Source: a virus
Reading direction: 5' to 3' (one strand)
DNA: 64,000 bases
IMG/VR virus record: IMGVR_UViG_3300037516_001783
Coordinates: 1 to 64,000 of that record
Made by a program: the position numbers and the translations under genes
Notes under the pieces: generated by a model
What the model saw: the letters and a program-made list of their open reading frames with translations, nothing else
Told to the model about the DNA's origin: nothing
The model's database searches: none
Shown here: piece by piece, positions 12,865-43,195 of the stretch
Layout of the letters: the number at the start of each line of letters is the position of its first letter
Position numbering within the stretch: the first letter of the stretch is position 1

Positions 12865-13184
12865 ATAACCTTTTCGTAAATTAACTCACCTAATTCGTTA
12901 ATTGAATAATTATCACTGTCAACAGCCTTTATATTTAACTCACCATTACTATCAATCCAAACTGATAATTCATCTGGGTTATTTTCAGAAACCATTAACA
13001 ACTCACCTTCTTTGAAATCAATTGAATTTAATTTACCAACTTGGTCGTCAACTAATAACACATCTTTTATCAAAGGTTCATCACTTGCTGGTGTTTGTAA
13101 ATTTATAGATTTTGTGACTCCTGTATTTGTCTTTGTATCTATGACCGATGAAGTTGTTATTTTTATCTTCTTAGAATTTGCCAT
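12861..13184 (-). CDS. Small tail protein, probable fibre attachment/adaptor
   Basis: 107 residues, acidic, no recognised family. It overlaps the J-like baseplate gene by 1 base and the tail fibre gene by 4 bases. A small gene between baseplate J and the fibre often encodes a tail-fibre connector or a short fibre N-terminus. Role inferred from location only. Confidence 0.5.
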   Translation of the reverse strand: MANSKKIKITTSSVIDTKTNTGVTKSINLQTPASDEPLIKDVLLVDDQVGKLNSIDFKEGELLMVSENNPDELSVWIDSNGELNIKAVDSDNYSINELGELIYEKVI

Positions 13185-14371
13185 TACAGTAGAGTTTGTT
13201 GTAAACTAAAATCAGCAACAGAAGGATAGTAATAAGGGTTTAAAGTCCCTGAAACTTCAGACATTACAGTACCATCTGGATTTAACATTATAAAACCTCT
13301 TATTCTAGGAATTTGGTTTGAAGGTATCTTAATATCAATTTTAGGTGAGAATGTATTATCTAAAATTCTCCTCACTCCAGGAACTCCTTTCACAATTATA
13401 AGTAAGTCTTCCCATTCTATCAAATTACCTTTAAAATAGCGATAATCGATGAACTTATTCATCCTTAATTGAGTTTCCTTTCTGATATTAGTAGCATCAA
13501 AACCACTTTCTAAAATACATCTGTAACTAACATCTATTGGGTACCAAACTGGGTTCTGTAATTTGACTCCGAATTTAGAACTTCCGTTTGGTTTATAATC
13601 AACTAAAGAAATATGTTTTTCTAAACCAACCATCATCTGATTAAATTCATTATCTGTAAAATCGATACCGTTTTGAGATACCACAGACAATAATACTTGA
13701 CCATCTGAAGCTATTCCATTATGAATAACTTTTAAGACGTTTGGATTAACTTTTATCAATGATTGTTCTAATAATCCGATTGTTCCTGTAGCAATGAAAT
13801 TACAACCATTCATGATTCTATTTCTAAAATCATCGTCATTTTCACTATCTCTACCACCTGTCGCATTATACTCGTTAATACAGTATTTGTGACCAACAGG
13901 AACAGGATTTACAGATGTTATTGATAGTGGTGCTGAATTTGTTTTTTCTCCTAGAGATTGACTTCTTACTTTTACATAACCAAATCCAGAAGCACCTATA
14001 TTTAGAGTTTGTTCAACGTCAAAAACAGTTCCGTCTAAACTTTTGAATGTGTGAAATCCTGCAATATAAGAAGTATTTATATCACCAACAACCCTTACAT
14101 AAGTAGAACTCTGACTTGAACCGAATCTATTTGAAATACCGTATCTTTGTGCTATTACATCAAGATTTTCACCATAAGCGTCTTCTGGAAATAAATGGCT
14201 TTCTAATACAGCAACATCTTTTAATATTTTTTGACCAATTTTAGCAACTCCGTACGCAATACCATTATTAACAGACAAAGGAGAAACTTTTGTAACTTTA
14301 TCTGTATTGTTAAGGAACATCTCAATGTATATTCCTTTTAATTCCTCTACAGTTGATATTTTAGTTATCAT
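13184..14371 (-). CDS. Baseplate wedge protein, J-like (gp6/gpJ family)
   Basis: 395 residues. The central part has the Baseplate_J signature: an N-terminal adhesive region with LDVIAQRYGI, then GGRDSENDDDFRNRI around residues 170-186, followed by NPNVLKVIHNG. In contractile tails the J/gp6 protein forms the inner ring of wedges around the hub and transmits sheath contraction. It overlaps the upstream 308-residue wedge protein by 4 bases. The assignment is strong by the E/DDxFRxRI signature and synteny. Confidence 0.88.
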   Translation of the reverse strand: MITKISTVEELKGIYIEMFLNNTDKVTKVSPLSVNNGIAYGVAKIGQKILKDVAVLESHLFPEDAYGENLDVIAQRYGISNRFGSSQSSTYVRVVGDINTSYIAGFHTFKSLDGTVFDVEQTLNIGASGFGYVKVRSQSLGEKTNSAPLSITSVNPVPVGHKYCINEYNATGGRDSENDDDFRNRIMNGCNFIATGTIGLLEQSLIKVNPNVLKVIHNGIASDGQVLLSVVSQNGIDFTDNEFNQMMVGLEKHISLVDYKPNGSSKFGVKLQNPVWYPIDVSYRCILESGFDATNIRKETQLRMNKFIDYRYFKGNLIEWEDLLIIVKGVPGVRRILDNTFSPKIDIKIPSNQIPRIRGFIMLNPDGTVMSEVSGTLNPYYYPSVADFSLQQTLL

Positions 14372-16110: not shown

Positions 16111-16120
16111 TATAACTGTT
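16111..16120 (-). promoter_or_regulatory. Late-gene motif copy (AACAGTTATA)
   Basis: AACAGTTATA on the minus strand ends 7 bases before the ATG at 16103 and overlaps the end of the upstream spike gene. One of seven intergenic copies. With this little space any transcript started here would be nearly leaderless, so a role in translation or RNA processing is also possible. Confidence 0.45.
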
Positions 16121-17009
16121 AATTGAATAACAGCGAAATCCTCTCTTTTATCAAATTGACTTTAGCAATTGAATCTGGAGCAAGTGGCAATACACCTGAA
16201 ATTGGGTCTAATACTTTGATTGCCAGAATCTCTGTAACTAAATCACCAAAAAGTTTTGCAAAATCTTCCTTCTTATTTTTAATACTTACATTCTCTTTTG
16301 CTACAGTAATTGAAGTAGATTCAGTTTCAAGTTTAACTCCAGATTCAGACATTGAAACCTTATTTTTAAATTGGTCTTGGATTGATAAATTTCCGTCACC
16401 ATCTATACTTATGATACTTTGCTTACCTTTCTTACCAACTTTGATATCAAGTGTTCCAGGAGTCTTTAAATTCACTGATTTTTCAGCATTAACATTTAAG
16501 TCTCCTTGTACATCTAAATCAAATTCAGCTTCATTTGTGTCATTACAAATTTTTAAAAATGACTTTTCACCTTTTTTATTAGAATTACAAACAAGTCTGA
16601 ATGTTCCACCCTTACCTGATAAATCAAAGTCAACAAAATTTGAAAAACTTTCCTTAAAAATTCTAAATTGCCTTTCTTCTAAAATGATAGGTTGTTCATC
16701 TTCAGTTTGTAAAATACAAACAACTTTTGACTTTCTGTAAAGTGTGTCCCTCACGCAGAATACAGCTGTACCTACCTCTCCAAACTGAGAAGGAAATTCT
16801 ATGTAATGTATAGAACCTTTGTCAATTTGAACATTCTTTTCTATTTGATTGTCAACACTTTTAATCATCAAAGTGCCCTTTTTAAAACAATCTTTTATAT
16901 ACTTTGTTCTATCGACATCTAATGGTATAATAACATGTCCTGTGAAGGCTACGTACTCATTAACTCCGTATCCCTTTTTACCTATTGTTTTTGAGTTATC
17001 ATTCATCAT
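16119..17009 (-). CDS. Baseplate spike protein (gpV/gp5-like OB fold plus beta-helix)
   Basis: About 296 residues from the ATG at 17009 (another ATG directly follows). The N-terminal half is beta-rich and contains VAFTGHVIIPLD and a GTAVFCVRD region, fitting an OB-fold. Residues about 160-240 have a repetitive short-strand pattern (LDVQGDLNVNAEKSVNLKTP) typical of the triple-stranded beta-helix needle. A helical C-terminus follows. In contractile tails this trimer forms the membrane-piercing tip below the hub. It overlaps the hub gene by 11 bases. Confidence 0.7.
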   Translation of the reverse strand: MMNDNSKTIGKKGYGVNEYVAFTGHVIIPLDVDRTKYIKDCFKKGTLMIKSVDNQIEKNVQIDKGSIHYIEFPSQFGEVGTAVFCVRDTLYRKSKVVCILQTEDEQPIILEERQFRIFKESFSNFVDFDLSGKGGTFRLVCNSNKKGEKSFLKICNDTNEAEFDLDVQGDLNVNAEKSVNLKTPGTLDIKVGKKGKQSIISIDGDGNLSIQDQFKNKVSMSESGVKLETESTSITVAKENVSIKNKKEDFAKLFGDLVTEILAIKVLDPISGVLPLAPDSIAKVNLIKERISLLFN

Positions 17010-20000
17010 CACCGTTCCTCCAAATTTCTAATTCTCTTTCTGCTCTATCAAGTTTTATTATGTTACTTTCAAGTTCATTCACTTCAATAATTTCACCTAA
17101 ATTTGGTTGATTTGAAATAGAATAATTCCCTAAAGTTTCAAAGTCTAATATGTTATCTGAAAACTGTCGTCTACTTAAGAAGAATGAAAAAATTTCTTGA
17201 TTAACTTTTAATTTAGAATAATTATCTTGGTAAGTTTCAACAACTTGTTGGACACCTTCTGAATTTTGATATGTAAGTTTAACAATTACAGCTCTATCGT
17301 TTTTAGATAAATTTTGTTTATCTGATAGCAAGTTATCAAGGTCTGCAGCAACCTTTTCACCGAATGTATAAACACTTATCCTGTCATTACCTAATGGTGG
17401 TAATTCTGGAAAGCTTCTATTGTAAGTTTCTTTTATAATACTGACAACATGATGTGCTCTTCTTGAACCTAAATCTTTGTTATAAGATACTGAAGACCTT
17501 TCATCTGTGTAACCTGTAACTCTTATAGATAGTGAACTGTCGTTTCGTAGTTTATTCACATACTTATCTATTATAGATAAATTTTTGTATGAAATTTCTA
17601 ATCTAACATTTTGATTTCTTTCATCTAACTTATTCAGTAATGATAAATCTCTTGTTGGGTCTAACAATGAAGATTCATTTGTATCGAACAACAATTTAGA
17701 ATCTTCAACAGTATCAGTTGGTATTGTTCTTTTTGTAGACAACTGTTTTTCTGAAGAATGTAAACCTGATATTATATTGAAGTATAAAGGAAGTATGTAT
17801 TGTCCAGAAGCATTGTACTCAACCATCCCTCTACTAACTGAAATAGTTGTAGTGTAATTTGTTTGCTTTTCGTTTACAGAATAGTTATGATTCACACCAT
17901 CTATGTAAAATACTTCACCTGTAGTTTTTGACCTCATCCACACACCTTTTCTTATCCTTTCGTCACCAATTACTGTAAAAGTTCCAGACCTCGTAAAAGG
18001 GAGATAAGCATTCGTTTCTATGAGAAATGATAAATCTTCAAATATTTGTCTTTCAGTTCTTGTTTTATCAGCACCATATTTTTCTTGCTCCTCTCTTTTT
18101 GGATTTATACCAGCAAAAGGAGTGTAAATATTTTGAACGTCTAAACCTTTATTACCATAAACTTCACAGAATTCTCTAAAGAATACTGCTGGCATTTCTT
18201 CTAAGTAACTGAACTGTTGTTTACCGTAAGAAACATAATCAGTATTCATCCTATACCAACTATAAACATCTCCAGAGTACCAACCTAAATTTGTTGAGAC
18301 AACCTTATCAGCAGTAATATTTAAAGCTTCTGAGTTAGAAGTTAATTCATCTAAATAAGATTTTACATCTGATTCATTGAATGGTGGTCTCCTAATTAAA
18401 AAGAAAAAGTTGTTAATGTATGTATCACTAAGTAATTCAACAAAACGGTCATCAACCATTGTTTTTATACCGTTCATTATACTACCACTGTGTACAGCTA
18501 TTGTTGTATCTCTAACATACCTATCCTGTACATTATCAGGGTCACTAATTACTTTAACAATCTTCCAAATTCCAGCAGCATCATACCTTTCTATCTTTCT
18601 GGATTCATAATTGAAGAAATCGTATTGAGATATTCTAAAATCATCTTTTACTCCTAAATAAGATAGGAATAAATTACCATTACAAATTTCTGTTGTAACT
18701 AATGAGTTAAAAATGAATGACACCATTTCACCAACAGTTCTTTCCTTACTATATGAAGCAGATAACAATTCTGTATTCATATTGAGTTTTGAAGCTAATG
18801 CTGGACGTCCCCAATTTTCCGGATTATCATTTCTAAAAATTCCTGTTTGTTGTCTAACTTCCCTACCTATGTTCAATAATTGAGTACTGTCTTCAATTAT
18901 CAATTTATTAAGGTCTCTACCTGTTATACTTACACCTCCAGAAGCATCTTGACCTTGTGTTGATACTGTATTTGTATCGACTAAACCTATTAATGAGAAA
19001 GAATTTTGTGATAATTTTTCAGTTGGATAGACTATGTTATACGGTTCATCTGGTGAGACTGTGTTAGTTTCTTTGTCAAAGATGTTATCATCATTAAATG
19101 AAATAAATACAACATCATTTGCACTTATCATGTTATGAAAATAGAAAATATTTTGCATTTTCAAATCTTCACCATTGACATTTACATCTCTATGTGTATT
19201 TCCTTTAAAGACATAACCACCTTGTCTGTTTACTTCTTTGTAACCTTTTGGTAGTACCTTTAAAGAGAAATCATTTTCATAAGACATTGTTATTGGTGGT
19301 AATGTAAATGAAAATGAAGCACCATTTTTAGTATTATTAACAACTAAGTTTTGTATAAAAGGTGAGATATCTAATAATTCACCTTGAACATCATACCTTG
19401 GTCTTGCAGAAGATTGTCCTTTTTTAACATTTACAGCTTTACACCAAATAAGTACTTTTGGTTTTTGTTGTCTTTTTAAAACTACCGATGTCTGGGTGTT
19501 AAATTTCTTCTTGAAGGTTTTAGTTACAACACTTCTTTTTAAGGCATTTAAAATAAAAGTCTTTGTATTTTTATTTGGGAATATGTTGGTTGAACCGTCA
19601 AATGGTACAAATTCTGGAAGTATCCAAGCACCACTAATTTCAATCCTAGCACCTAATGGGACATAATTAGCTTCTTGACCATCTTCAATTTTATTACCAT
19701 TTTTATCTAACTTCTCTTCACCATAAGCTTTTCTAATACTTTGTCTGTTAGTTGCTGGTGTACCAAAATTAAGTATTTTATCTGCTGTTAATTCTTTCTT
19801 GTTTAAATAATCATACCAACCTTTGTATTGAATGATTTCATCTAATGTGGTATATAAAGGGTTTGTGTGTATATAAACGATATTCCCTTTTGTCAATGGA
19901 ATAACAACACTATCAACTTGTTTTTGTTCTTCTATTCTTTGACTAACTTCTTTTTGTTTCTTTTGTTCTGTTTTTTGTACTGTACTGCTTTTTAAAGTAA

Positions 20001-20538
20001 TTTTAGATTTTTTATCAACCCATCTTTTAAATGAACTTATGGTAATGTCACCATTTTCATTATCAATACCTCTATTCCCTTCGGATATCTTTTTAGGAAA
20101 TTTCCAATTATTAGGTTTATAAAGTGTACCACCAAAAACACCATCTGCATTAGGATAAAAAGCTATCAAATACAGATGATATAAATCTGTAATTTTACCT
20201 GTATAGGCTTTAAAATATTGATAAACATATTCAAGTTGTTCGTAATTTTTTAAAGCACCCATCTTTTCAGCATAGTACTTTCTTAATGTCCTATCTTTTG
20301 ATTGTGATTTAGATAATTTACCTAGTAAACCACAACAAGTTGCAGGCATAAATTGAATCAAACCGACAGCACCTGTAACTTTATTCCTGACTGAAGGTGA
20401 GAATGTACCACCTGTTTCAGAATTAAAAATAATCATCAGCCAATCTGGGTCAACACCTAAAAGTCTTGATATACTGATTACTTTATTTTCAAATAACTGA
20501 CGATTCTCAGTTATATTCTCTATAAATTTAATTGCCAT
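16999..20538 (-). CDS. Multidomain baseplate hub: lytic transglycosylase + hub + OmpA-like domain
   Basis: 1179 residues. Residues about 20-140 are an SLT-type lytic transglycosylase, with FNSETGGTFSPSV giving catalytic Glu41 and GAVGLIQFMPAT as the family motif. The middle (about 350-930) is beta-rich and, by position next to the spike, is expected to hold the gp27/gpD-like hub. Residues about 949-1090 match an OmpA/MotB peptidoglycan-binding domain (LLFDTNESSLL, VTGYTDERSSVSYN, GSRRAHHVV). The protein would cut and anchor to the murein during penetration. It starts 1 base after the tape measure gene ends. The fusion of lysozyme and OmpA domains in one hub is unusual. Confidence 0.8.
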   Translation of the reverse strand: MAIKFIENITENRQLFENKVISISRLLGVDPDWLMIIFNSETGGTFSPSVRNKVTGAVGLIQFMPATCCGLLGKLSKSQSKDRTLRKYYAEKMGALKNYEQLEYVYQYFKAYTGKITDLYHLYLIAFYPNADGVFGGTLYKPNNWKFPKKISEGNRGIDNENGDITISSFKRWVDKKSKITLKSSTVQKTEQKKQKEVSQRIEEQKQVDSVVIPLTKGNIVYIHTNPLYTTLDEIIQYKGWYDYLNKKELTADKILNFGTPATNRQSIRKAYGEEKLDKNGNKIEDGQEANYVPLGARIEISGAWILPEFVPFDGSTNIFPNKNTKTFILNALKRSVVTKTFKKKFNTQTSVVLKRQQKPKVLIWCKAVNVKKGQSSARPRYDVQGELLDISPFIQNLVVNNTKNGASFSFTLPPITMSYENDFSLKVLPKGYKEVNRQGGYVFKGNTHRDVNVNGEDLKMQNIFYFHNMISANDVVFISFNDDNIFDKETNTVSPDEPYNIVYPTEKLSQNSFSLIGLVDTNTVSTQGQDASGGVSITGRDLNKLIIEDSTQLLNIGREVRQQTGIFRNDNPENWGRPALASKLNMNTELLSASYSKERTVGEMVSFIFNSLVTTEICNGNLFLSYLGVKDDFRISQYDFFNYESRKIERYDAAGIWKIVKVISDPDNVQDRYVRDTTIAVHSGSIMNGIKTMVDDRFVELLSDTYINNFFFLIRRPPFNESDVKSYLDELTSNSEALNITADKVVSTNLGWYSGDVYSWYRMNTDYVSYGKQQFSYLEEMPAVFFREFCEVYGNKGLDVQNIYTPFAGINPKREEQEKYGADKTRTERQIFEDLSFLIETNAYLPFTRSGTFTVIGDERIRKGVWMRSKTTGEVFYIDGVNHNYSVNEKQTNYTTTISVSRGMVEYNASGQYILPLYFNIISGLHSSEKQLSTKRTIPTDTVEDSKLLFDTNESSLLDPTRDLSLLNKLDERNQNVRLEISYKNLSIIDKYVNKLRNDSSLSIRVTGYTDERSSVSYNKDLGSRRAHHVVSIIKETYNRSFPELPPLGNDRISVYTFGEKVAADLDNLLSDKQNLSKNDRAVIVKLTYQNSEGVQQVVETYQDNYSKLKVNQEIFSFFLSRRQFSDNILDFETLGNYSISNQPNLGEIIEVNELESNIIKLDRAERELEIWRNGDDE

Positions 20539-20539
20539 T

Positions 20540-22435
20540 TTAATGTTTTGGTTCTACTGTTATTCCAACACTTTTAACTTCTCCTAATGCTCCTGTTAAT
20601 TCACCAAGACCTTTAGCTAAATCTGTCATAGATTCAGACAACATTTTACCAAAACCTCCTAACTCAGATTTCAAACCATCTAAAGAAGAAACTAATTGTT
20701 TTTCAACTGCATGTTTGAAACCTTTTGTGTCTTTTGAATATTGGTCCATTTCAGATACATCACCAACTTTTAACCCACCATTTGCATCGTAAGCGTCTAA
20801 CAATTGTTTCGATTTACTTAATGATGATATGTTAAAAGCACCTTGAACATCTCTTAATATAGAAAGTTGCCCAGCGTCTGTATCTGCGTACCCACCGTAT
20901 TCTTGTTTTAAATTCTTAATGAATTGGTTGATAATTTGTACACCTTGAGGATTACTCATATCTTCCATTTGCATAGCAACCTGTGTTGATGAAGCGTTTT
21001 GCCCTAAAACTTGTCTTGCTGCTCTAACATTCTTGAATTTATGTAAAGGGTCTGAAGCATTAGAGAAGCTTTGTTGCATACCTGAAACAAGGTCTCCAGC
21101 ATTATCACTATCTTTAAATATACCTCCTAAACCCATAACAGAATTCATGAATTTCATGTTATTCATAGAATCTGCTGATGAAACTTCACCTTTAATGTTC
21201 AAAGTTTTTTCTTGCATAGAAGTCAACTTTGACATGTATTTTGGTAATTGAGAAAGGTCTTTTCCTACACCCCTGTCGTCACCTAGTGTTATTCCAGTTT
21301 CTAACTTTTCTAACATTTTAGCAAACATATAAGTTCCAGAAAGAGAATCCATCTGCTCCTTACCTGTAAATGACTTTTCACCTGTTACATAGCTATCGAA
21401 AGTGTTATCCTTTCCTATACCCATGGTTTTCTGTAAAACCTTCTCGTCTAAAAATCTTTCTGTGATATCATATCCTGTCCTTGTTCGACCTGACATTTCA
21501 ACCATTTCATTTAATGCTTTTTCTAACTCATCAACTCCGGCAATACCAACACCCATTGATTTAGCACCTGTAAATGAATCAAGTGATTTCAACATGTTAC
21601 CCTTACCTAATGCTCCGGAAAGTTGATTAACAGTTTCACCTAATTTTTCACCACTTGTTACACCTTTCAGTAAAGTTGTAGCTATCATATCAAAAACACC
21701 CATTCCAGCAGAAGCTCCTTTAGACATACCTGATGCTCTGGCTGCTGCAAAAGTATTCATCCCACCTTGAGCGATATGAAGAGCATCACTTGCACCTCCA
21801 CCACCCATAGCTTCTGCTGCAGAACCTAAAACCTTCCCAGCAAATAAATTTTGAGCGAACTGTCTTTGAAACCTCTCTTCTGGAGTTTTGTATGTACCTT
21901 CAACTTGTTTATGCCAATCCTCAGCACTTTTAGCACGAACCCTTTCTTCGTTATACCTATCAGCACTTTCGTAATCTCCAACATTTTTCGCTTGTATTGC
22001 TTTTTTCTTGTACTGTTCTTGTACTTCTCTGAGTTGCTTTTCAGTTAAAGACCTGTATTCCCTGTGTCTTGAGTTATTCTCTTGATTCTGTTTATTTATA
22101 GCTTCAGAATTTTCTTTTAACCTTTGTGAGTTATCAGAAAATTGTTTTTCACCTTGCTTAAAATCTTGGAATTTTTGTGAAAAAGGGTTTGCATTTCCAG
22201 ATTTAAAATCTGCTCTTTCTTGACTTGAAAATTTACTTTCAAACTTTTCTCTTGCTTGTTTTGACCTTTGCTCTTCGTGTCTTTGTCTTTGAATTTCAGA
22301 CATAGAAGAAGTGTTAGTTGTATCTTTCCCAAGATACCTTTCATTGAATTTTGAAACCTCTTCATAAGCACTTTGCATCCTTTTTTTGAAGGAATCAAAG
22401 TTGGCTTCAAAATCTAAAACTATGGTCTTGTTCAT
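20540..22435 (-). CDS. Tape measure protein
   Basis: 631 residues. It opens with a VLDFEANFDSFKKRM segment, then a long Gln/Glu/Lys-rich coiled coil (about 40-190), then an Ala/Gly-rich segment around 195-300 with GGGGASDALHIAQGG and SGMSKGASAGM hydrophobic patches, and more helical sequence to the end. This is the usual tape-measure composition. It lies directly between the tail chaperones and the hub protein, as in most long-tailed phages. At about 1.5 angstrom per residue the length would correspond to a tail near 95 nm if the whole protein is extended, a family-based estimate. Confidence 0.82.
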   Translation of the reverse strand: MNKTIVLDFEANFDSFKKRMQSAYEEVSKFNERYLGKDTTNTSSMSEIQRQRHEEQRSKQAREKFESKFSSQERADFKSGNANPFSQKFQDFKQGEKQFSDNSQRLKENSEAINKQNQENNSRHREYRSLTEKQLREVQEQYKKKAIQAKNVGDYESADRYNEERVRAKSAEDWHKQVEGTYKTPEERFQRQFAQNLFAGKVLGSAAEAMGGGGASDALHIAQGGMNTFAAARASGMSKGASAGMGVFDMIATTLLKGVTSGEKLGETVNQLSGALGKGNMLKSLDSFTGAKSMGVGIAGVDELEKALNEMVEMSGRTRTGYDITERFLDEKVLQKTMGIGKDNTFDSYVTGEKSFTGKEQMDSLSGTYMFAKMLEKLETGITLGDDRGVGKDLSQLPKYMSKLTSMQEKTLNIKGEVSSADSMNNMKFMNSVMGLGGIFKDSDNAGDLVSGMQQSFSNASDPLHKFKNVRAARQVLGQNASSTQVAMQMEDMSNPQGVQIINQFIKNLKQEYGGYADTDAGQLSILRDVQGAFNISSLSKSKQLLDAYDANGGLKVGDVSEMDQYSKDTKGFKHAVEKQLVSSLDGLKSELGGFGKMLSESMTDLAKGLGELTGALGEVKSVGITVEPKH

Positions 22436-23222: not shown

Positions 23223-24065
23223 TTAACTGTGATTTGCTAAAGATTTCTTTTCAGCCCAATATCTTTTAGCATTTTCAGATTTTATCAACCTAATCCTTTC
23301 ATTTTCTTCTGGTGTTCTACTATCCCATTTAGCTTTTCGTTTAGCTTTAATTTGGTCTTGTTGTTCAACAGTTTTACTTGTCCAATTTTCACTCTTTTTA
23401 TTGAAAGTTATTTCTTTGTCACTTTTACTCCTATTTTTATGACCTGTGGAAACTTTATTTCCGAATTCCTTAACTTTCTCTTCAGACCTTTCATCCCACT
23501 CCTTTTGTTTTGATTCTGATAATTTGTTATATCTAACAAGTTTTATTTCTTCAGGAGTATTTTCTAAGGTTTGTCTAAATTTTACTTTAGATTCTTGTGA
23601 ATGTTGTTTACCATAAAATGGATTTCCAATACCTTGTATTCTTTTTGATATCTTTTGTTTTTGTTCTTCTGAGAATCTATAACCTAACATGAATTTCTTT
23701 CCAATCATATCTGGTCTCGGGACGCCTTGTTTTGCTAAAGATATTTTCATCCTAACTTCTTCTGTCGGTCTTCCTCCTTCACCTCCTTCAGTTTGGTTAT
23801 ATCCAATTTTAGGATTAATTGAATTAAATTGTTTTATAAAGAATTTTTCTATCTCACATATATCCTCTCCTGATATTGATTGGTATAATTCACATATTTC
23901 AAAATTTTCAATACCATACTTCCTCATTGCATTGTGTAAATAGAACCCTTTACCACTATTAGCAGTTGATTTGTGAGAATCAAATCTTATTTGAATTGTC
24001 TTTCTTGTAAAACCGATATAAATTTTACCGTTAATTTTATTTCTTATTTTATAAATATAAGCCAT
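23223..24065 (-). CDS. Free-standing GIY-YIG homing endonuclease
   Basis: About 280 residues from the ATG at 24065. The N-terminus holds the GIY-YIG core, with YIYKIRNKINGKIYIGFT as the two signature strands, IRFDSHKS with the conserved Arg, and ENFEICEL. The catalytic Glu is expected near IEKFFIKQFNS. The C-terminal half carries NUMOD-type DNA-binding repeats (the RMKISLAKQG and FSEEQKQKISKRIQG style). It is of the SegA/F-like free-standing type and sits between tail tube and tail chaperone genes, downstream of a terminator-like hairpin. It is probably a mobile gene that cuts alleles lacking it. Neighbouring genes look intact. Confidence 0.9.
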   Translation of the reverse strand: MAYIYKIRNKINGKIYIGFTRKTIQIRFDSHKSTANSGKGFYLHNAMRKYGIENFEICELYQSISGEDICEIEKFFIKQFNSINPKIGYNQTEGGEGGRPTEEVRMKISLAKQGVPRPDMIGKKFMLGYRFSEEQKQKISKRIQGIGNPFYGKQHSQESKVKFRQTLENTPEEIKLVRYNKLSESKQKEWDERSEEKVKEFGNKVSTGHKNRSKSDKEITFNKKSENWTSKTVEQQDQIKAKRKAKWDSRTPEENERIRLIKSENAKRYWAEKKSLANHS

Positions 24066-24071
24066 GATTAA

Positions 24072-24130
24072 AAAGAAAAAGTCTAAAACCAATTAAGCTA
24101 CCACACTTAAAAGGAATTAGACTTTTCTTT
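24072..24130 (-). terminator. Terminator-like hairpin after tail tube gene
   Basis: On the minus strand AAAGAAAAGTCTA at 24130-24118 can pair with TAGACTTTTTCTTT at 24085-24072 (one bulged base), followed by more T. The 32-base loop is long. It lies between the tail tube stop and the GIY-YIG start and would insulate the structural operon from the inserted gene. Moderate support. Confidence 0.5.
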
Positions 24131-24751: not shown

Positions 24752-26758
24752 TTAAAATTTAGCGTCAAGCGTTACACCTGTGAATAACAATTTGTTAATT
24801 GGACCATTAGGTACATAACCGAAAGTAACATTCCAAGCATCACCATCTAAAGAAACTTTAACATCTTGGAATGAAATAATTAAATTATCTTTTCCGTTGT
24901 TAACAGTTCTGAAAGTTAAGTAATTTTCTGTAAATAACTTAACATCAATTGGTGAAGCAGTACTGTAATTTCCACCTACAAATAACACCCTTGAATTTAA
25001 ACATAATTCTTTTATCAATTGAGCATTGATTCTTTCGATACTCAATTCATAAGAATTACCTTCTGTATCTACAAGGTTATCATTTTTCTGTAAGGTATTA
25101 ATAGATTGATTTACAATCCAATTTTTACCATTTACAAATCTTAAGTGCCAAACGCCACCAAGCAAACATTTCTCTCTTTCAGACTTGTTTAAGTCATGAA
25201 TTGGATAGCTAATATCTAAATCCTTCCAAGTAGTTGGTACTTGAGGTTCTAATCCTGCAGTACGTCCTAATGCTATTGCAGCATGATAGAAAGAACTTAA
25301 CTTTTGCTCACCACCACCTATTTTTGGTCTAACAATACCACTATGAACAACAATAGTGTTTTTAGAGTTGTAGCTTTTTGCTATATCTAAAGAACCGTTT
25401 GTTCCGTTCAATTCGTTACTACTGTAACCACCTCCAATAAATGCAAATTTAGCAAATTCAGAATTAGCTTTAATGAAAGATAATATTTTATTGTTATTAA
25501 CACTTTTAGCATTAACACCATAATTATCTAACAAGAAGAAAGTGTTATCCTCTTCAGTAATTTCTTGTAAAACTCTATCGATATCACCAGAACTGTAAGA
25601 TTCAGTACCACCTGTAGCAATAGTGTAATTAGCATAAGTTGCTAAGTCAGCACTATCAATAAGACCAGAACCATTTACAGTTGTTGATAATTGGAAGTAA
25701 GACAAGAAATTGAAATTAACTTGAGCCCAAGTGTTAAATTCATTGATTGATGAGAATTCAGGTGACTGAACTATCAATTTCTCAGTTGAATTTGCAATAG
25801 AACCTTGACCATAAACATCACTGTAATCAGAAATTGTCCAATACTGATAAGTCATATCAGTTGCAGGATTTCTATTTATGTTAGAACCTGAAACTGAAGT
25901 GAAAACAAAACCATTGTAATAAACAGACTGACCAGCACTGTAAGTTGTGGTTGAATTCCAAGTAGGAATGTTAAAACTTGGTTCTAAGTTATTTACACCT
26001 CTGTAAGTACCTTCATAGAAGTTCAGTACAAACTTGTTAGTATCTAAAATACCAGATGTCATTTTAACACCATAACCTTTTAACAATTTGCCATTTAAGG
26101 TTACACCATTTCCAGAAAGACCTTCACTAACAACTTTGATTGTTAATACACCACCTTGAGTTTGTGCGAATTGACCTTTAAAAGCAATACCACTATTTGT
26201 TGTTGCAGCATTCGCAGTGAACTGTAATGAAGTATCACTATCTATTGTTAATACCGTACCAATTAAAACATTTGCTGAAGTTTTAATGATATCACCAACT
26301 CTTAACTCAGAAAGGAATTTTGTACTAACACCTGTTACTGAAGCTGAAGCAGTTGAAGTTGATATCGTTCCTGTTTTTGTTATATTACCACTTCCAGATA
26401 CTGTTAACACTATTTCAGGTGCAGTAGTTGTAGAAGCCTTAACAACCTGAACAGCAGAAGCACCATTACCTGTTTTAGAAGGTGAGAACAAGTAATCAGC
26501 TATATCCCAAAGGACACCACCTTTTACGAAATTCTTGAAAGTAGTTTTTTCTGTAAATTCATAAACAGTATTTTTGCCATTAGCTAATTGACCATTAACA
26601 CCAGCACCTCCACCAAAGTAAGAACCTATCCCTGTATCGATAATCATTACCTTACCAAAATCAGCTGCAGATTGTCTTTGAGTAGTACCGTTGACAGTTC
26701 TTCCGTAACTTCCAGGTTCTAAGATAGACCTGTTACCAAATTGAATTCTTATTGCCAT
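24752..26758 (-). CDS. Contractile tail sheath protein with inserted beta modules
   Basis: 668 residues. The N-terminal and C-terminal portions follow sheath conservation: an early RSILEPGSYGR segment and a C-terminal block with GGVWHLRFVNGKNWIVNQSINTL split around conserved strands, ending in GYVPNGPINKL. Residues about 130-195 are an inserted beta module (VTGVSTKFLSELRVGD, DSDTSLQF), also seen in the adhesin. Residues about 265-310 are a CBM5/12-like unit (WNSTTTYSAGQSVYYNG, ending YQYWTI). Sheath rings contract around the tube to drive injection. The decorated insertions probably face outward. It sits immediately upstream of the tube gene. Confidence 0.85.
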   Translation of the reverse strand: MAIRIQFGNRSILEPGSYGRTVNGTTQRQSAADFGKVMIIDTGIGSYFGGGAGVNGQLANGKNTVYEFTEKTTFKNFVKGGVLWDIADYLFSPSKTGNGASAVQVVKASTTTAPEIVLTVSGSGNITKTGTISTSTASASVTGVSTKFLSELRVGDIIKTSANVLIGTVLTIDSDTSLQFTANAATTNSGIAFKGQFAQTQGGVLTIKVVSEGLSGNGVTLNGKLLKGYGVKMTSGILDTNKFVLNFYEGTYRGVNNLEPSFNIPTWNSTTTYSAGQSVYYNGFVFTSVSGSNINRNPATDMTYQYWTISDYSDVYGQGSIANSTEKLIVQSPEFSSINEFNTWAQVNFNFLSYFQLSTTVNGSGLIDSADLATYANYTIATGGTESYSSGDIDRVLQEITEEDNTFFLLDNYGVNAKSVNNNKILSFIKANSEFAKFAFIGGGYSSNELNGTNGSLDIAKSYNSKNTIVVHSGIVRPKIGGGEQKLSSFYHAAIALGRTAGLEPQVPTTWKDLDISYPIHDLNKSEREKCLLGGVWHLRFVNGKNWIVNQSINTLQKNDNLVDTEGNSYELSIERINAQLIKELCLNSRVLFVGGNYSTASPIDVKLFTENYLTFRTVNNGKDNLIISFQDVKVSLDGDAWNVTFGYVPNGPINKLLFTGVTLDAKF
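25829..25966 (-). other. CBM5/12-like module inserted in tail sheath
   Basis: Sheath residues about 265-310 show W..TTTYSAGQSVYYNGFVF and a closing YW pair, the same aromatic pattern as in the adhesin at 3914-4041. Surface-exposed glycan-binding decoration of the sheath is inferred. Confidence 0.5.
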
Positions 26759-41116: not shown

Positions 41117-43171
41117 TTATTTAAAATTTATATCGTCTTCAATTACACCACCTAATAAATAATCAAATGCCTTTTTGATATTCACTTTCTTTAAACTCTC
41201 AGCATAATAATCTTTCCAATCTTCATATTGGTCTTGAGTTTCTTTTGGTAAATTTCCGAAAGTCATTTTTGCTTCTTTTATGTTACCTAAAGTTCTAACT
41301 TGTAAATCAGATTCTGGTAAGTTCTTTTGGTTCTTAACTAAAACGTCATACAACTCTTTGTTTTGTTCAAAGTTGTCATATCCGTCTCTTAATTTACCAT
41401 CCAACATTGTAGACATAGCATACAGCATTTGTTTTTTATCCAAATCTATATGTATAGGTTTACTTCTACCTTTAAGAGCAGCAGAGTCTTGGCTATCATC
41501 CAAACCTTTATTTGTAATGAAGTTTAACTTACCATGGAAATCAAATTCGTCTGGAATATCTTTAACATTTTCACCTGTTAAATCGGCTATCTTCTTTTTG
41601 AAAGTTGGTGTTATTGTTATCTTTGGAGTTTTACCTTCAAAGTTCTTAAGTAAGTTAATTGTTTTAGGATTAAACAACATACTATCACTGTCATCGAATG
41701 AAAGTAATGTTTTAGAACCCTCTTGTCCTCTATATTTATACAGATATGCAAGGAAATCACCGTAATTGAATCCCGTACCTTTCAATTCAACATAAGAACC
41801 GTTTGGATGCTCTTCTGGGTCGTAAGGTTGGTCTTTATTTATTTTGTCATAACCAAGTTCTCCCAATGCAGCTTTTTCTACATTGTATGATTTACCAACT
41901 CCTGCTTTACCACTAATTATTGTCATTAATTTAGGACTTTCGTCACTCATTAATGTTTTAATACTACCGATAATAGAATGAGCTGTTGAAGTGATTTCTC
42001 TTTTTTGATTATCGTCTAATCCTATACTTTGGTCACCGTTCCAACCAGCACCTGTTTTTGGATTATACTCACCATCCTTTAACTTTTGGATACCAAGTTT
42101 CTTTTTCTCGTCTTCAGAAAGTTTGGAAACGTCTACTTTTTCAGGTTTCTTAGTTTCTTCTTTAACCTTATCACTTTTCGGTTTTTCAGTTTTATCTTCA
42201 GAACCTTCTTTTGGATTTTCAGGTTTACTATCACCTTCTCCTTCAGCACGTTTATCATCAGGTTTAGAATCTTCTGTTTTATTATCAGCTTTTTTGTCAC
42301 CTTCCTTATTTTTATAAGGGTTTCGGTCATCTTCAGAATTTATGTATTCCTCACCTCTTTTAGCTAACTCTTTTTTTGCTGAATCAACTAAAATTCTTGC
42401 CTTTGGATTGTCATGTTCTTTGTCTAAAAAATTCTTTAAATCTTCAGTAGATGACTTTTTAGCATGAGATTCAACTTTTTTGTTATCCTGATAGATAGAA
42501 TGATAATCGTAATCAGAACTCTTGCCCTTTGGATTTTCAACCTTCTTATTAGACGGTTCGTTTGCATTATTATCTTCTTGTTTTGTGGTTTTAACTTCTG
42601 ATTGATTATCGTCATTTTTGACCCACTTTTTCATGTGTCTACCTAGCTTATCAACGATATCTTTGATATGTAGCTTACTCATGTTTAAACCCTTATTAAA
42701 CTCATCTGAATATGGGTTTGGTTGGGTTAAACTTGTAATGCTTTTTTCTAAATCTCTTTGATTAACAAAATCAAAATAATGGCTTAAAATTTCACCTTGA
42801 TTATCTAAGAAGTCAAATTCAGTTAAATCGTCATCACAAATAAGTTCATATTTATCATGTTCAAAATTTAGTATAGCAGATTCAACATCATACTCACCTT
42901 CATTTCTAACTAAAAAGTAATTAACTTCAAAATCTTCTTCACCGTTGTTTTCAATTGTTTTAAACAACAAAGAAATATCATTAGACTTTACATCTATTGA
43001 TATTTCTTCTTTTAATTCTCTTATTGCAGTTTCTATAGGCTCTTCACCGTCTTCAACTAAACCTCCTGGAAGGTTCCAACATAAATCTCCATAAGTTGCT
43101 GTAAAACTCCTTCTTAAAATAAGTACATTGGAATCCCAATCTGGTAAAATGGCTACAGAATATACGTTCAT
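41117..43171 (-). CDS. Nudix hydrolase fused to AAA-type ATPase
   Basis: 684 residues from the ATG at 43171. Residues about 1-130 are a Nudix domain: GGLVEDGEEPIETAIRELKE then EISI, a Nudix box with Ser in place of the last Gly. A 230-residue Lys/Glu/Asp/Ser-rich linker follows. Residues about 395-600 form an AAA-like ATPase, with SGKAGVGKSY (Walker A, about 420-429), TLLSFDDSD (Walker B, about 488-496), and FDFHGKLNFITNKGLDD as sensor 1. The C-terminus ends with IKKAFDYLLGG. Nudix enzymes cleave nucleoside diphosphate-X bonds. The ATPase half is related to both modules of the tandem ATPase at 44835-47057. Preceded by a late-motif copy. Confidence 0.75.
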   Translation of the reverse strand: MNVYSVAILPDWDSNVLILRRSFTATYGDLCWNLPGGLVEDGEEPIETAIRELKEEISIDVKSNDISLLFKTIENNGEEDFEVNYFLVRNEGEYDVESAILNFEHDKYELICDDDLTEFDFLDNQGEILSHYFDFVNQRDLEKSITSLTQPNPYSDEFNKGLNMSKLHIKDIVDKLGRHMKKWVKNDDNQSEVKTTKQEDNNANEPSNKKVENPKGKSSDYDYHSIYQDNKKVESHAKKSSTEDLKNFLDKEHDNPKARILVDSAKKELAKRGEEYINSEDDRNPYKNKEGDKKADNKTEDSKPDDKRAEGEGDSKPENPKEGSEDKTEKPKSDKVKEETKKPEKVDVSKLSEDEKKKLGIQKLKDGEYNPKTGAGWNGDQSIGLDDNQKREITSTAHSIIGSIKTLMSDESPKLMTIISGKAGVGKSYNVEKAALGELGYDKINKDQPYDPEEHPNGSYVELKGTGFNYGDFLAYLYKYRGQEGSKTLLSFDDSDSMLFNPKTINLLKNFEGKTPKITITPTFKKKIADLTGENVKDIPDEFDFHGKLNFITNKGLDDSQDSAALKGRSKPIHIDLDKKQMLYAMSTMLDGKLRDGYDNFEQNKELYDVLVKNQKNLPESDLQVRTLGNIKEAKMTFGNLPKETQDQYEDWKDYYAESLKKVNIKKAFDYLLGGVIEDDINFK

Positions 43172-43195
43172 TGTTTTATAAAATAACAATAAAAA

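Follow-up and report, generated by a model that had tools for sequence, protein, structure and literature searches.

The stretch of DNA analysed here, referred to as the window, comprises 64,000 nucleotides, namely positions 1 to 64,000 of the 107,935 bases of the IMG/VR virus record IMGVR_UViG_3300037516_001783. Its minus strand holds, at positions 16999-20538, an intact open reading frame (ORF) with an ATG start that encodes a protein of 1179 residues, exactly as the original prediction had delimited it. From ORF calling and domain matches, this protein is read as a baseplate hub in which a transglycosylase, an N-terminal hub domain, the hub core, an OmpA/Pal-like domain and a conserved terminal motif follow one another. 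The interpretation that we favour, with a probability of about 0.62, is that the protein serves a contractile-tailed phage both as baseplate hub and as tail lysin, and that its Pal-like domain would grip the murein as the transglycosylase cuts; this reading draws on sequence comparison and structural modelling.

The OmpA/Pal-like domain spans residues ~945-1092 (positions 17263-17706, minus strand) and is indicated by Pfam, by the alignment to Pal and by Foldseek, so that the limits proposed earlier (949-1090) turn out to be correct within a few residues. The hub passes the profile check for the OmpA family (PF00691, E value 1.1e-6, 29.4 bits for a cut-off of 27.2) and is the only ORF of the virus record that matches this model. 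Besides, the NCBIfam model TIGR02802 (Pal_lipo) matches residues 981-1085 with an E value of 3.5e-7, but its 30.2 bits stay far under the equivalog cut-off of 125.35, and the domain is therefore assigned to the OmpA superfamily and not to Pal itself. Escherichia coli Pal (2hqs) matches residues 988-1091 (E value 5.7e-6), with the hub stretch GYTDERSSVSYNKDLGSRRA aligning to a 20-residue stretch of Pal, and a Foldseek search with the modelled region retrieves structures of Pal, MotB and Acinetobacter baumannii OmpA (3td4), a complex with diaminopimelate being among them. In A. baumannii OmpA, diaminopimelic acid (DAP) is bound by Asp271 and Arg286 (PMC7573547). The two corresponding residues, whose presence had been named as a check on the prediction, are found at the sequence level as Asp1012 (positions 17503-17505, minus strand; GYTDERSS aligned to GHADERGT of Pal) and Arg1027 (17458-17460, minus strand; LGSRRA aligned to LGERRA of Pal). 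They are predicted to bind DAP, and the 15 residues that separate them equal the spacing of Asp271 and Arg286.

At the other end of the protein, the N-terminal ~180 residues are a predicted SLT-type lytic transglycosylase, with the module itself covering residues ~14-180 (positions 19999-20499, minus strand). Residues 13-177 match phrog_196, annotated as 'baseplate hub', with an E value of 9.3e-17, and the module matches the solved lytic transglycosidase 9udh with an E value of 9.3e-15, while the generic Pfam SLT model stays below its threshold (E value 0.02, 14.9 bits for a cut-off of 21.3). In addition to these profile matches, a catalytic Glu and a GxxGLxQ-type motif are both present: the predicted catalytic residue Glu41 (20416-20418, minus strand) lies in SETGG at residues 40-44, followed by GAVGLIQF at 56-63, and this region aligns to ETGETFSPSVRN...GLIQFM of 9udh. 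The N-terminal transglycosylase and its Glu41, both already proposed, are thus upheld.

Between the two modules, residues 362-925 (positions 17764-19455, minus strand) show no match to any family profile. They do have homologues in Chryseobacterium phage MA9V-3, Bacteroides phages DAC16 and SJC03 and one fecal phage, in which the gene order is similar. An AlphaFold2 model built with 54 relatives is confident over this region, with blocks reaching a predicted local distance difference test score (pLDDT) of 96, and its best Foldseek match in the PDB is the baseplate hub of phi812 (1.2e-15), further matches being diffocin, the MuSo2 43 kDa tail protein (3cdd, 1.8e-8), Mu and other contractile-system hubs, and VgrG proteins. 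Among the best named matches in viral models are SPO1 Gp12.1 and 'tail lysin' proteins. Since a deep profile of the relatives alone gives no sequence match in the PDB, the hub identity rests on the fold comparison and on the homologues; together, these support residues 362-925 as a contractile-phage baseplate hub core of the gp27/VgrG type. The core is preceded by the N-terminal hub domain (residues ~219-345; 19504-19884, minus strand), delimited from N-terminal lengths and predicted secondary structure. Such a domain, ~140-170 residues ahead of the core, is present in nearly all family members; its sequence pattern is vaguely LysM-like, and no Pfam LysM match was obtained among the hubs scanned. 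Behind the OmpA domain stands the conserved motif FSFFLSRRQF (residues 1117-1126; 17161-17190, minus strand). A further ~53 residues, mostly predicted helical, extend beyond it (16999-17160, minus strand), unlike many relatives, whose hubs stop ~10-30 residues past the start of the motif.

Searching viral contigs with the whole hub protein, or with the OmpA domain alone, returned no relative, whereas an alignment of the hub core used against IMG/VR yielded 63 related loci (designated here by L numbers). A new finding is thus that the window hub is a member of a modular hub family of Bacteroidota phages; four loci come from bacterial genome contigs, three of Chitinophaga and one of a Bacteroidetes bin. 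Common to these hubs are the N-terminal domain, the core and, at the end, an FNFFLxRRQF motif, whose pattern is found in 55 of 77. Their wall enzymes occupy one of three sites: the N-terminus, the point at which the gene is split, or a C-terminal slot bounded by core and motif. N-terminal enzymes are of the M15, M23 and lysozyme types, and SLT in the window hub. The C-terminal slot holds a phage lysozyme (L013), SLT_3 (L026), NlpC/P60 (L030, L042), M15/VanY (L043, L046, L063, L092, L093 and, sub-threshold, L091) or a transglycosylase or endolysin (L002, L033 and, sub-threshold, L090); the long C-terminal extension of L018 gave no identity. All recognised occupants of the slot other than OmpA are wall hydrolases. 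Ten hubs are split over two adjacent genes near mid-core (L053, L056, L072, L074, L077, L035, L041, L047, L065, L069), the second gene opening with an M23 or M15 wall peptidase in all but L077; such hubs may be made as two chains or through a translational frameshift. As a separate observation, ARAGORN calls in L006, near a tRNA-Tyr gene, a tRNA whose anticodon is TCA and which it lists as tRNA-SeC (16595-16665, minus strand; record positions ~80595-80665). This tRNA could decode UGA, even though the standard code leaves the structural genes here open.

Similar fusions, whose search had been proposed as a further check, do exist: six other uncultured hubs, on separate contigs, have their own OmpA domain at this C-terminal slot, and five of them also bear a recognised wall peptidase, M23 in L053 and L078 and M15 in L056, L072 and L074. 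Two of the six, L053 and L056, lie within the 63 loci found with the core, and L072, L074, L077 and L078 came from a targeted alignment; because the latter was designed to pick up OmpA hubs, the fairer estimate of frequency is 2 of 63. By Pfam OmpA score, L053 and L078 exceed the cut-off, L056 falls slightly short of it and L072 is weak, while L074 and L077, which have no Pfam OmpA score, belong here through homology to the other OmpA hubs. A profile of the seven hub domains matches OprF (4.1e-10) and A. baumannii OmpA (6.2e-8). In a quick tree of the cores, the six other OmpA hubs form one group and the window protein stands apart on a long branch. An independent gain of the domain in the window phage and in the six other hubs was considered and dropped, a tree with all seven in one clade scoring better (approximately unbiased test, p 0.82); a common origin of the seven OmpA hubs is, from these sequences, not rejected. 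The long branch, together with the failure to find a close relative of the whole protein, could suggest that the fusion is an assembly accident or a passing recombinant devoid of function. We consider this barely credible, given the open frame of 1179 residues, the conserved motif past the domain and the recurrence of OmpA hubs on the contigs of six other loci.

What the domain does can be approached through its position. The best support for a role in wall anchoring is that the other identified occupants of the slot all act on the wall. Moreover, enzymes that change beside a constant OmpA domain are to be expected, because a grip would be indifferent to the bond that is cut. The anchoring of the hub to murein, put forward in the original prediction, is plausible and now better supported, as the shared slot and the recurrence of the domain with other wall enzymes suggest, the role itself being a predicted one. 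Several observations weigh against it. The model of the OmpA region is of moderate confidence, with a mean pLDDT of 59 that is too low for side-chain geometry, and the SLT part is poorly modelled in the full AlphaFold2 model. The OmpA homology peaks over residues 985-1040, and Pal's C-terminal NRR pattern is only partly kept (KNDRAVIV). The N-terminal module of L077 matched nothing recognised as a hydrolase, Asn replaces the key Asp in L078, and hubs free of the domain are the majority of the relatives.

Two other roles for the domain have to be considered in the light of these data. The OmpA fold could be a structural part of the baseplate, packed on the spike, the wedge or the tube, with peptidoglycan binding lost. 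Wall-type folds can indeed serve as baseplate scaffold, an example being the LysM-type domain of T4 gp53, and the domain lies close to the hub body, between the core and the conserved motif, in a group of which one member, L078, has lost the Asp of the DAP pair. Yet the ligand Arg is kept in all seven hub OmpA domains and the Asp in six, the slot is otherwise filled by wall enzymes, and most hubs of the family do without the domain, which is thus not needed for assembly; we regard such a structural role as rather unlikely. Alternatively, the domain might mimic Pal and engage a Tol-Pal-like machinery of the host (TolB), or another envelope protein, instead of murein, since the solved structures nearest to it include both free Pal and the Pal-TolB complex (2hqs, 2w8b). 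This appears highly improbable: the likeness spans the generic peptidoglycan-binding region of OmpA, the family profile fits OprF and A. baumannii OmpA at least as well as it fits Pal, and no feature specific to TolB binding was found.

The surroundings of the gene, all on the minus strand, fit a contractile tail. Just upstream of the hub lies a probable tape-measure gene (20540-22435), named from its position, no family match being obtained. Further upstream, the tail sheath gene (24752-26758) is recognised by tblastn to the annotated tail sheath of Thermus phage Lalka (2e-5) and to MA9V-3 (2e-69), the tail of the latter having been seen as contractile by electron microscopy (PMC13120357). 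On the downstream side, the next gene (16119-17012) encodes a probable baseplate or spike protein, with a match to the baseplate assembly protein family phrog_9992 (E value 0.0024) and a position equal to that of the gene downstream of the hub in the relatives, and further downstream lies the gene of the baseplate wedge protein J (13184-14371; Pfam Baseplate_J 2.2e-12, phrog_6 1.6e-25). The hub is thus placed between the probable tape measure and the spike and wedge genes, in synteny with its relatives; with the phi812 fold match and the homologous phage cores, the nearby sheath and Baseplate_J genes bear out the hub identity claimed at the outset. Three further features may be mentioned: residues 127-197 of the sheath resemble the tail-fiber family phrog_1980 (4.4e-7) and are perhaps a surface-displayed insert; a GIY-YIG-type homing endonuclease gene (23223-24092; phrog_314, 4.6e-37) lies between the gene adjoining the sheath and those that precede the hub; and a 690-residue protein encoded among the head genes (41117-43189) has a NUDIX domain at its N-terminus (Pfam 4.6e-12).

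Compared with known systems, the window hub comes near the tail-lysin hubs of the SPO1/phi812 type (SPO1 Gp12.1, the Listeria and Lactobacillus 'tail lysin' proteins, PHROG 1015), which likewise combine the hub fold with wall-degrading enzymes, and PHROG 1015 matches the cores of the window hub's relatives. These tail-lysin hubs, however, have ~10-16% identity to the window hub and no OmpA-type domain reported in the records consulted. The core fold is also common to T4 gp27/gp5, Mu-type hubs (MuSo2 3cdd, Mu) and VgrG. In T4, the lysozyme is carried on the spike protein, whereas the window hub itself bears the enzyme and, in addition, a predicted wall-binding domain. The hub of MA9V-3 (XQU63079.1) has a homologous core, the same gene order and a contractile tail, but its C-terminal slot is occupied by a transglycosylase where the window hub has OmpA, and it has no N-terminal SLT. 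As to the domain itself, fold, sequence and the Asp/Arg pair are shared with the peptidoglycan-binding domain of bacterial Pal, OmpA and MotB; there it sits on envelope proteins, while here it lies inside a virion hub, with neither lipid anchor nor barrel. Another OmpA-type domain that serves a contractile machine is that of the wall anchor TagL of the type VI secretion system (7bba and 5m38 are among the matches), which fastens the membrane complex of the secreting cell itself and not an injected tip.

Hub-lysin fusions are well known; the new element is the putative wall-binding domain. With two hub OmpA domains as queries, no OmpA/Pal-type domain in a hub was found among 50,697 phage records, nor did a literature search return a description of one, both negatives holding for these collections at that sensitivity; at this level of search, an OmpA/Pal wall-binding domain in a hub is new. 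What the phage records did return were bacterial-looking Pal/OmpA genes, in records that seem to be bacterial contamination or misfilings, and the OmpA proteins of two fecal contigs, which lie amid bacterial genes; neither set represents hub fusions.

Taken together, these data are consistent with a model in which contraction of the sheath would drive the tube through the outer membrane and expose the hub to the periplasm. The Pal-like domain would there grip the diaminopimelate stem peptides of the murein through Asp1012 and Arg1027, with several grips per tip if the hub is trimeric, as is usual for this fold, while the N-terminal transglycosylase would cut nearby glycan strands. The OmpA domain would in this way hold enzyme and tube at the wall until a local hole opens for the passage of DNA. 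In a variant of this model, the domain would sense contact in addition to gripping, murein stem peptides releasing or positioning the hub-linked enzyme and committing the tail to opening. Wall cutting and DNA release would then occur on peptidoglycan only, and enzyme modules would be swapped under one constant sensor; we consider this variant improbable.

The host of the window phage is most likely to be sought among Bacteroidota. It had also been suggested that the domain is an adaptation to the Bacteroidota envelope. The link to this phylum agrees with the relatives (Chryseobacterium, Bacteroides and Chitinophaga loci), but the adaptation itself is weakly supported, as the domain is missing from most hubs of this family of Bacteroidota phages; at 2 of 63, it looks like an option within the family and not a general adaptation. 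Under the anchoring model, a phage tail tip may carry its own cell-wall holdfast beside the drill, and the slot that it fills is one that houses an enzyme in related phages. This gives a handle on whether wall anchoring aids a local, non-lethal opening of the wall during DNA entry. Finally, the present description brings out a modular hub family in poorly studied Bacteroidota phages, and its OmpA domain could serve as a natural binding module for DAP-type walls.

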